A DNA stretch of 64,000 nt from Caulobacter rhizosphaerae (lineage in GTDB: Bacteria; Pseudomonadota; Alphaproteobacteria; Caulobacterales; Caulobacteraceae): assembly GCF_010977555.1 (NCBI RefSeq), contig NZ_CP048815.1, forward strand, positions 806,001 through 870,000, read 5' to 3'. The notes below the pieces were generated by a model. That model was given only the letters and a program-made list of their open reading frames with translations. It was not told where the DNA came from and did not search any database. The position numbers were made by a program, and so were the translations under genes. Every line of letters starts with the position of its first letter. Positions within the stretch are counted from its first letter, which is position 1. Shown piece by piece: positions 51,937-54,831 of this stretch.

Positions 51937-52141
51937 GGTCGTCTCCTTGTGACGCCGCCAAGTTAGGGCTTCGGTCGGCCGCCGATAATCTGGGGCAATC
52001 GATACGAACTGTGCGGATATGCGAACAATCCGAGCCGCTCGCCGACGAGCGCGGGGATTTTCGACGGCGGGCGCTGGGCGCCCGAAAACTCGGCAGCCGT
52101 AGGTAGTTTCTTTTGAAACTCAATATTTTAGTTCAAGCGGC

Positions 52142-52255
52142 GGTATGGCTATGTTACCGCTACCTTCGATGGATTGAGCGGGCGAGATCCCAACGGCCAT
52201 CAGAGGAACGCGTCGGGAGGTGGTTGAACTCCAACCCCCTTTCGGAACTGAAATC
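52142..52255 (+). promoter_or_regulatory. Promoter and structured 5' leader of the first UrcA-like gene
   Basis: GGCTATG near 52147 may be the -10 box. The leader contains GAGCGGGCGAGATCCC at 52176-52191, identical to the leader of the second UrcA gene. TCCC-A-ACG can pair with CGT-C-GGGA (52211-52218). The hairpin GGTTG-AACTC-CAACC follows at 52222-52236, with 19 nt left before the ATG. The second gene has the same parts in the same order and spacing. Confidence 0.65.
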
Positions 52256-52555
52256 ATGAAGACTCTGTTTGTTCTGGCCGCCTCGGCCATCGCCCTGACC
52301 AGCGTTTCGTCGGCCTTCGCCGGCGAGCAGCACGTCAAGGTTCGCGGCCGCACCGTCGCCGCCATCCACGCCGACATCGTCGCCGCCGCCTCGTCGATCT
52401 GCCGCGAAGAGATCGGCCAGCACCCCAACGACCTGTATTCCGATTGCGTCCGCGAAGTGACCCGCGACGCCGTGCAGAAGGTGGGCAGCCCCACCCTCAA
52501 GGCCTATGACCGCCAGGCGTTCCGCACCAGCGGCCTGCTGAAGGTCAGCTACTAG
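52256..52555 (+). CDS. UrcA-family secreted protein
   Basis: 99 residues with a signal peptide (MKTLFVLAASAIALTSVSSAFA). The mature domain has the UrcA pattern of alternating helices and two cysteines: VKVRGRTVAAIHADIVAAASSICREE and YSDCVREVTRDAVQKVG. The family is common in Caulobacter and sphingomonads with unknown function. It is followed by a paralogue with the same leader. The frame is open to 52220, but the signal peptide begins at 52256. Confidence 0.85.
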   Translation: MKTLFVLAASAIALTSVSSAFAGEQHVKVRGRTVAAIHADIVAAASSICREEIGQHPNDLYSDCVREVTRDAVQKVGSPTLKAYDRQAFRTSGLLKVSY

Positions 52556-52669
52556 GACTCGTTCGGGCCCGGTTTCGCGCGGCTTTTGGCGGCGCGGGAC
52601 CGGGTTTCCTCCCAAGGTTGTCGCGGCCTTGCCTGTCAACGAATTTTGTGACCGCACTGCAATATAACC

Positions 52670-52798
52670 GTTGATAAGTAAAAACGAGCAAGCTATGGCT
52701 TGGTCGAGGCGACAGAGCGGGCGAGATCCCGGACCAGCCGCCGCGGGGAAACGCATTTCGGACGGGTTGAAGTTCAACGCTGTCCTGGAATCCGTCCC
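52670..52798 (+). promoter_or_regulatory. Promoter and structured 5' leader of the second UrcA-like gene
   Basis: TTGATA at about 52672 and GCTATGGC at about 52692 resemble -35 and -10 boxes. GAGCGGGCGAGATCCC at 52715-52730 is identical to the first UrcA leader. Its CCC may pair with GGG (52764-52766). The hairpin GTTGAA-G-TTCAAC follows at 52766-52778, leaving 20 nt before the ATG. Confidence 0.65.
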
Positions 52799-53089
52799 AT
52801 GATCCGCTCCATCGTCCTGGCCGCCTCGGCCGTCGCCCTGTTCGCCGCCGCGCCCGCCGGCGCCGCCGAAGTCCGCATCAAGACCGCCGGCAAGGCTCCG
52901 GCCGAACTGCGCGCCGAGATCGTCAAGGCCGCCTCGACCGTCTGCTGGCAGACCGTCCGCGGCGAGAGCCTGGCCTCCTACCTGTACCCCGCCTGCGTCC
53001 GCGCCTCGGTCAACGACGCGGTGGTCAAGCTGAACAACCCGGAACTGGTCTCGTACAACGACGCCAACCCGGCCATCCGCGCCCGCTAA
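52799..53089 (+). CDS. UrcA-family secreted protein (paralogue)
   Basis: 96 residues with a signal peptide (MIRSIVLAASAVALFAAAPAGAA). The mature part parallels the preceding gene: VRIKTAGKAPAELRAEIVKAASTVCWQ and YLYPACVRASVNDAVVKLN, with the two cysteines in matching places. It has its own promoter-like sequence and leader. Function unknown. A terminator follows. Confidence 0.85.
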   Translation: MIRSIVLAASAVALFAAAPAGAAEVRIKTAGKAPAELRAEIVKAASTVCWQTVRGESLASYLYPACVRASVNDAVVKLNNPELVSYNDANPAIRAR

Positions 53090-53146: not shown

Positions 53147-53176
53147 AGCCCTCTCCGGTGACGGGGAGGGCTTTTT
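53147..53176 (+). terminator. Rho-independent terminator after the UrcA pair
   Basis: A 10-bp stem AGCCCTCTCC (53147-53156) with GGGGAGGGCT (53163-53172), one G-U pair, followed by TTTT. It is 57 bp after the second UrcA stop. Confidence 0.88.
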
Positions 53177-53295: not shown

Positions 53296-54831
53296 ATGAA
53301 AACCAGATCCTTGGCCGCGGCCGCCTGCGTGTCGCTGCTGTGGCTGGCGGCGTGCTCGACGCCGACGGCCGCGCCCGACTCCAAGGCCGCCGCCGACGGC
53401 ATGGCGGGCGCGTCGACCGTCCGAGGCCGGGGCGAGGCGAGCGCGCCGCTGGCGCGGGTCCCCGCCGCCGAGCGGGAGGTGGCGGATTCGGTGGTGGTCA
53501 GCGCCTCGCGCGCCGGGCCCGACGCGCGCGACGGCGGCTCGTCGCCCCCACCTCCACCGCCGCCTCCTCCGCCCCCGCCGCCGCCCCCGCCGCCATCGCC
53601 GCTTGGCTACATGGATCCCGAACCCGCTCCCCCGCCGTCACCTGGCGCCGCGCCGCCGGCGCCGAACGCGCGGAACGGCGGGGCCCTGGAGCCGGTGATC
53701 GAGCGCCGTGAGCACGAGCCGCCCCTGGCCCAGTCGCCGGCCCGGCGGGCGGGGCAGCTGACCGCCGCCGATCACGACGACCTGCTCAATCCCGACCTCT
53801 ACCAGGCCTATGCCGACCGATTCCGCCAGCGCCTGGGCCGCAAGCTCTATCCGGCCGTCGATACGGGCCAGCAGCTGCGGATCCGGGTGGTGGATCGCGA
53901 TGGGCGGCGGGCGCCGCTGTCCGCCGTGACCGTCCGCCGGGCCGACGGCGAGGCGCTGAGGCTGATGACCAAGGCCGACGGCCAGGTGGTGGTCTTCCCC
54001 AAGCTCGACCGGCTGGGCGAGCGCGTCGAGGCGTCAGTGACCGCCGCGGATGGCCGCGTGGTGTCCGGCGTGGCGGCGCCGCGCCCCGGCGCACCGCGCA
54101 CCCTGACCCTGCGCCTGCCGGGGCGCGCCAAGCCGGTCCAGGCCGTGGACGTGCTGCTGGTCATGGACACCACCGGCAGCATGGCCGACGAGCTCAGCTA
54201 CCTGACGGCGGAGCTGTCCGACATCCTGGGGACGGTGGGCGAGCGCCACGCCGGCGTCGACATCCGCGCCGGCCTGCTGTTCTACCGAGACCTGGGCGAC
54301 GCCTATACCGTGCGGACCTACCCGTTCACCGGCGACCGCCAGGCCGTCCAGGCGAGCCTGGCCCACCAGTCGGCCAATGGCGGCGGCGACTTTCCCGAAG
54401 CCATGCAGGTCGCGCTCCAGGAAGCCGACGCCTATCCCTGGCGCGAGGGGGCGGTGAAGCTGATGCTGCTGGTCGCCGACGCCCCGCCGCACGAGTCCGA
54501 CCGGGCCCAGGCCTGGACCTCGATACTGTCGGCGCGCGAGCGGGGGATCCAGGTCGTGCCGGTGGCGGCCAGCGGCGTCGATGACGACGCCCAGTACCTG
54601 ATGCGCGCGGCGGCGGCCGTCAGCCAGAGCCGCTACATCTTCATCACCGACGATTCCGGGATCGGCGCCGCCCACGCCGAGCCGTCGGTCGACTGCTATG
54701 TCGTCACCCGGCTAAACGACCTGATCGGCCGGGTCATCGACGGCCTGGTCTCGGGCCGTCGCGTCGAGGCCGAGCCCGACGCTGTGATCCGCCAGGTCGG
54801 GCGCTATGACCGGGGCGTCTGCCGGCGCTGA
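53296..54831 (+). CDS. Von Willebrand factor A lipoprotein with poly-proline linker
   Basis: 511 residues. A lipoprotein signal (SLAAAACVSLLWLAAC, lipobox LAAC) anchors it to a membrane. A run of about 17 consecutive prolines lies at about residues 84-100, then Pro/Ala linker. An Ig-like or peptidase-regulatory-like domain (LRIRVVDRDGRRAPLSAVTVRRADG) precedes the vWA domain with MIDAS motif VMDTTGSMADELSYL (about D291) and NGGGDFPEAMQVALQEA. vWA domains bind proteins through a metal ion. Likely an envelope adhesion or assembly factor. A bidirectional terminator follows. Confidence 0.88.
   Translation: MKTRSLAAAACVSLLWLAACSTPTAAPDSKAAADGMAGASTVRGRGEASAPLARVPAAEREVADSVVVSASRAGPDARDGGSSPPPPPPPPPPPPPPPPPSPLGYMDPEPAPPPSPGAAPPAPNARNGGALEPVIERREHEPPLAQSPARRAGQLTAADHDDLLNPDLYQAYADRFRQRLGRKLYPAVDTGQQLRIRVVDRDGRRAPLSAVTVRRADGEALRLMTKADGQVVVFPKLDRLGERVEASVTAADGRVVSGVAAPRPGAPRTLTLRLPGRAKPVQAVDVLLVMDTTGSMADELSYLTAELSDILGTVGERHAGVDIRAGLLFYRDLGDAYTVRTYPFTGDRQAVQASLAHQSANGGGDFPEAMQVALQEADAYPWREGAVKLMLLVADAPPHESDRAQAWTSILSARERGIQVVPVAASGVDDDAQYLMRAAAAVSQSRYIFITDDSGIGAAHAEPSVDCYVVTRLNDLIGRVIDGLVSGRRVEAEPDAVIRQVGRYDRGVCRR

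Follow-up and report, generated by a model that had tools for sequence, protein, structure and literature searches.

Comparative analysis supports the conclusion that two genes for UrcA-like small secreted proteins in Caulobacter rhizosphaerae, located within a stretch of 64,000 nucleotides that was analysed as a whole (hereafter the window), are each preceded by a conserved, structured, cis-acting RNA leader. The element is conserved in Caulobacter, often as two tandem copies, and in a sister genus, and judging from its linker, an alphaR8 small RNA probably reads it as a control switch.

The leader elements, the promoter of copy B and the two genes described here lie on the forward strand. 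Copy A (99 amino acids) is encoded at 52256..52555 and copy B (96 amino acids) at 52799..53089, and both leaders follow an architecture common to 88 UrcA-like ORFs from 50 Caulobacter loci, in which a stem (P1) around the region of a 16-mer is followed by the linker AGAGGAACGC or a similar sequence (consensus roughly GRGGRAACGY, also given as GRGG(R)AA(A/G)CGY), a hairpin (P3) and then the ATG. In leader A, coordinates and covariation place P1 at 52168..52201, where GATGG (52168-52172) pairs with CCATC (52197-52201) around the 16-mer at 52176-52191; inside the 16-mer, a small apical stem (P2) joins GGG (52180-52182) to CCC (52189-52191). The conserved linker AGAGGAACGCG (52202..52212), which is complementary to the alphaR8 sRNA core and thereby a candidate docking site, leads into P3 (CGGGAGG-T-GGTTG / CAACC-C-CCTTTCG, 52213..52246), which ends about 10 nt 5' of the ATG. 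Leader B is built likewise, with P1 spanning 52708..52742 (GGCGAC 52708-52713 / GCCGCC 52737-52742, with one A-C mismatch) around a second 16-mer at 52715-52730, the linker GCGGGGAAACGC at 52743..52754, whose core (52745-52754) forms 10 contiguous pairs with the alphaR8 core when G-U is allowed, and P3 at 52756..52790. The linker pattern matched 79 of 80 leaders, L089 being missed, and the distance from the end of P3 to the ATG, measured for 78 of them on the model-fitted alignment, was 8-11 nt in 71.

The original prediction had been drawn from the two leaders of the window, and much of what it described is there. The same 16-nt sequence occurs in both: within the 5.96 Mb genome, GAGCGGGCGAGATCCC is matched perfectly at the two positions given above and nowhere else. 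Both leaders also have the GTTGAA-type hairpin followed by 19 or 20 nt to the ATG, and the sequence of P3 in leader B is unlike that in leader A while pairing is kept, as had been stated. The proposed CCC/GGG stem with a downstream GGG did not survive, in that folds pair the CCC with the GGG inside the same 16-mer, and it is superseded by P1 and P2; the helix with covariation support, namely P1, encloses the 16-mer and was missing from the list of elements first given.

The genes had been called UrcA genes, which holds insofar as the products are small, secreted and UrcA-like, and fails for genuine family membership, as copies A and B score 10.0 and 18.4 bits against TIGR04433 (UrcA family), both under its cut-off of 25. 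They share with urcA (CC3302) and its family the character of small secreted proteins and a sub-threshold similarity, and differ both in falling under the cut-off and in having the leader, since at the four genuine UrcA genes of the genome neither a credible model match (the best, at 16.7 bits, lay far from the start) nor an element recognizable by eye was found. The concern raised with the original prediction, that other UrcA leaders might lack the element, is borne out at these four genes as far as UrcA leaders in general are concerned. Two of the genuine UrcA genes stand in tandem at G000:C1 4729960-4730845, without the leader. The two window proteins are 38% identical over 64 aa, and a relative is encoded in 56 of 75 genus genomes, of which 40 have at least two matches, mostly a few hundred bases apart; the gene pair is old. 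A scan of named genomes returned 30 loci, mostly titled Caulobacter and including C. vibrioides, whose strain DSM 9893 has the genes, the remainder being metagenome bins with less specific titles, and one homologue (P0064) is named "UrcA family protein" in one source database.

Covariance models R1, R2 and R3 were built from 17, 68 and 80 hits, respectively, the last from 56 loci. The 17-leader model matches 87 of 88 leaders of the fetched Caulobacter loci in place, including the 17 on which it was trained, and gives a shortened hit on the 88th (L048 copy B). At E<=0.1 this model detects the element in 54 of the 75 genomes of the genus. A broader model, applied to 299 genomes of the family at E<=0.01, detects it in 78, which belong to two of 22 genera. 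In the second genus, which we guess to be Phenylobacterium, all 25 hits lie directly 5' of a small ORF related to copy B, and the leaders keep P1 (different in sequence, still paired), the linker and P3; the apical part of P1 differs between the two genera. None of the second-genus leaders examined has the 16-mer, so that this sequence, which is truly shared in the window and had been taken together with the CCC/GGG stem as a conserved core, cannot be the core of the element.

The searches of the family, order and class are samples of larger groups. Among 249 genomes of the order there was one further true case (G080), also preceding a small ORF related to copy B, and among 385 genomes of the class the genome studied here was the sole match; no credible copy was seen outside the two genera in the sampled family, order and class genomes, with search filters through which weak matches may escape detection. 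G861, the only hit from beyond these genera, was rejected, since no UrcA-like ORF follows it. As other gene targets, four weak hits that no UrcA-like gene accompanies (G021:C98, G010, G071:C116 and G006:C4) were likewise rejected: three fall inside or next to unrelated reading frames, and G071:C116, 5' of an unrelated ORF, has an E-value of 0.0069 with R2 and is absent with R3. Weak hits of this kind are expected by chance, because the E-values are per genome and 75 or 299 genomes were searched. The credible hits that were read show a strict link to one protein family.

Compensatory changes support an RNA structure. On a sequence-only alignment of 72 leaders (of the 78 left after removal of near-identical ones, the six divergent leaders L074-L079 being omitted), P1 is paired in 98.1% and has 36 double-changed cells vs 8.4 after shuffling, with slid controls at 0-1; on the model-fitted alignment of 80 leaders, double changes occur at 15 of 20 pairs. 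Shared ancestry was taken into account by a tree-aware null, for which branch events were counted on trees built without the tested columns and compared with 300 simulations. P1 then has 22 double events against a null mean of 0.69 and maximum of 3 (reached in 0/300; slid controls 0), and the outer part of P3 has 13 against a mean of 1.46 and maximum of 7 (0/300; slid controls 0-4). The sequence-only alignment gave 7 double events for P1 vs 0.33 (maximum 4; 0/300). P2 is weak, with 3 events vs 0.42 (1/300), and the inner part of P3 has no double events in the tree-aware count; its columns are invariant and for this reason uninformative on covariation. A stricter, R-scape-like scan of all pairs returned only one of 3741 column pairs at E<=0.05, and the three top-scoring pairs are all in the structure. 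A covariation search with the leaders as seed, as had been proposed, thus finds compensatory changes in P1 and outer P3 beyond tree-aware nulls, and the conserved structured RNA leader of the original prediction is upheld.

Total folding energy is ordinary, with z-scores of -0.83 and -0.35 for the window leaders and -0.92, 0.11 and -0.33 for those of three relatives, and therefore energy alone would not have revealed the element. In ensembles that include 45 nt of coding sequence, computed for 79 leaders (L085 was omitted), the probability of P1 exceeds 0.5 in 24% and is near zero in both window leaders, so P1 is poorly supported by single-sequence folding; the inner part of P3 is favoured in 91%, and the linker is mostly unpaired in 46%. 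The sequence CTGGCCGCCTCGGCC is identical in the signal-peptide codons of both genes (52274-52288 and 52817-52831), and in folds that include it the coding start pairs with the P1 region and so competes with the formation of P1. A small upstream ORF from a TTG in P3 was considered and dropped; by eye, its frame relative to the ATG varies among leaders.

The candidate partner comes from C. crescentus, where SisA-D are alphaR8 sRNAs and have the core UUUCCUCCCU, SisA represses mRNAs, and CrfA sponges SisA-D, which are reported to bind one of its loops, according to the available part of PMC12559287. The alphaR8 family was chosen as the partner after reading this one paper, and UrcA-like mRNAs are not named in the part of PMC12559287 that was available. 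The genome studied here has three alphaR8 genes above the Rfam RF00519 score, with the longer core GGGCGUUUCCUCCCU, and one CrfA carrying GGGGAGGAAACGCC at this loop, which the leader linker resembles. A 20-nt alphaR8 core pattern, with up to 3 mismatches allowed, is present in 15 of 15 other family genomes tested, where the best hits have 0-1; alphaR8 occurs also in genomes without the leader element.

Among the 32 distinct linkers, 31 form at least 9 pairs with alphaR8 with at most one bulge, vs 2.4% of random 13-mers. In a shuffle test at p<=0.05, pairing was better than expected for 30 of 32 linkers with the alphaR8 core, for 0/32 with the reversed core and for 0/32 with the 16S tail in what we take to be its sequence. 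When two consensus linkers were mutated at 1 to 3 random positions, -13 kcal/mol was kept in 75% to 4.5% of trials; all 32 observed variants reach this value, and they are not 32 independent tests, because they are related by descent and 11 are identical to a consensus in ten core positions. Neither random 15-mers from the window (0/4000) nor permuted cores (0/4000) match the linkers as well as the core does; of the cores with shuffled pyrimidines, 1.4% attain the median observed. Chance sites are common in DNA this rich in GC: an alphaR8 site at -13 kcal/mol or better is present in 57% of random stretches of 107 nt, and at -15 the comparison is 24% of such stretches vs 91% of leaders. For 14 of the 80 leaders the best site falls outside the linker, and 12 of them have it 11 nt further downstream, within P3. 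Interaction energies from co-folding are modest (-4.3 to -11.4), with a position that is sometimes not the linker.

The reading that fits these observations best, and to which we give about an even chance, is that of a folded leader presenting an alphaR8 docking site. Both leaders would be copies of one structured 5'-UTR element acting post-transcriptionally, in which the linker may serve as the docking site of Hfq-associated alphaR8 sRNAs (SisA-D in C. crescentus, MmgR elsewhere) and P1 and P3 would keep it open, much like the loop of the sponge RNA CrfA. Since the site lies some 44-54 nt upstream of the ATG, docking would be expected to alter mRNA stability or a P3 gate by the start codon rather than to mask the start codon itself. 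If the leaders behave like the published SisA targets, one would by default expect repression in cells well supplied with nutrients, lifted in carbon starvation when SisA is sequestered by CrfA. A more specific version, which we put forward tentatively and would sooner doubt than accept, makes the leader a dedicated mRNA-borne alphaR8 receiver or sponge, whose covarying two-stem scaffold displays a CrfA-like loop between hairpins, so that UrcA-like mRNAs would sense or titrate alphaR8.

Several known systems bear comparison. The leaders resemble the C. crescentus targets of SisA-D (alphaR8/MmgR, Rfam RF00519 'suhB') in a linker complementary to the core GGGCGUUUCCUCCCU and in a genome that has the sRNA genes; in the SisA target CCNA_03574 (G-6), as far as the available source text goes, the site is just before the start codon, whereas the candidate site here is well upstream of it, in a conserved covarying scaffold. 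With the sponge sRNA CrfA (RF01527) they share the G/A-rich loop and the same partner sequence, and they differ from it in being mRNA 5' UTRs; the RF01527 covariance model has no match at the leaders, and its one match in the genome is elsewhere. The serC, speF, ybhL and SAM-II elements are leader motifs of alphaproteobacteria. The window leaders are like such motifs, as far as the accessible portion of PMC1273637 describes them, in being structured 5' leaders, and unlike them in having no Rfam 15 match at or above the gathering score. Matches to the Rfam rnk and CrfA models at the E-value threshold were rejected, being far under the gathering scores and at coordinates other than the leaders. 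In the open-access literature searched, at the level of titles and the beginnings of abstracts, the leader family is not described, so that it adds to the structured leaders a family found in neither source and gains a concrete candidate partner. If the alphaR8 reading is true, small secreted UrcA-like proteins join the SisA/CrfA carbon-starvation circuit, and an sRNA target site is conserved as a folded scaffold far 5' of the start codon.

A promoter is predicted for copy B at 52671..52697 (-35 TTGATAA 52671-52677, -10 GCTATG 52692-52697), 10 nt 5' of P1, using an assumed promoter consensus, and it would place P1 near +3 to +5. A loose -35/-10 pattern was found 5' of 33 of 80 leaders, including copy B of the window and six of the second genus and no copy A. 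As the -10-like element ends 7-11 nt 5' of P1 in these 33 leaders, P1 would lie a few nucleotides behind the predicted transcript start, and where a promoter is recognised the element may make up nearly the whole predicted 5' UTR.

This placement bears on other explanations of the conserved fold. With P1 so close behind the -10-like element in these 33 leaders and P3 ending at a nearly constant distance before the ATG, the element could be a structural stabiliser or spacing scaffold that needs no sRNA partner, its 5'-terminal stem blocking decay and P3 keeping the start region open, for which the ompA 5' UTR, said to have a stabilising 5' stem, offers a comparison. Stabilisation by a 5'-terminal stem-loop is an established mechanism, to judge from titles cited in PMC3997798, yet we consider this explanation unlikely, given that it leaves the conservation of the linker and its complementarity to alphaR8 across variants unexplained. 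Two covarying stems that flank a conserved core, together with the strict link to one protein family and the uranium induction of the related gene urcA, would also suit a leader that senses a ligand or protein, be it a riboswitch, a metal sensor or autoregulation by the encoded protein. This is less probable again, as the element was found with one gene family in two genera, has no Rfam relative and does not conserve the apical part of P1 between them, and the induction of urcA by uranium is reported, in the available part of PMC8963506, to be transcriptional and to act via UzcRS.

Purines dominate the linker, in most cases with a GAGG or GGGG, and little but P3 stands between it and the start region; it could thus be read as a Shine-Dalgarno site that a looped-out P3 brings close to the start codon. 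A hairpin is said to do just this in phage T4 gene 25. The failure of all linkers to pair with the presumed 16S tail better than their shuffles makes such a role very improbable here, and 75.4% of C. crescentus starts are reported to have no Shine-Dalgarno sequence (PMC4117421, as far as available). The least probable explanation is that the conservation is one of DNA, in a promoter or operator, or that the similarity comes from recent duplication. Promoter-like elements and palindromes do lie directly upstream in many relatives, yet P1 and outer P3 have changed in pairs across their two arms, the position relative to the ATG is constant and the paralogues have diverged, all of which argues against it. 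Recent duplication as the sole source of similarity, a possibility noted with the original prediction, is judged unlikely because the proteins have diverged, both leaders recur across the genus and the second genus has the element.

Some further observations concern the flanks of the two genes. When the promoter regions of copy A in the window (52130-52165) and of its Caulobacter orthologues were compared, 37 of 39 had a 12-bp palindrome of the type GACAACGTTGTC / GACACCGGTGTC / GGTACCGGTACC with at most one mismatched pair, which seems to sit between the -35 and the -10; the two without it are L037 and the window strain itself (L031). By eye, a palindrome like TTGCGTCGCAA recurs 5' of the -35 in both genera (e.g., L076 copy B and the second-genus leader L110) and is possibly a shared transcription-factor site. 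By inspection, a terminator-like hairpin followed by T's lies 3' of copy B (53147-53176) and another inverted repeat 3' of copy A (about 52567-52607), for which reason the two copies look like separate transcription units. Downstream, 53296-54831 encodes a protein that combines a von Willebrand factor A domain with a long run of prolines.
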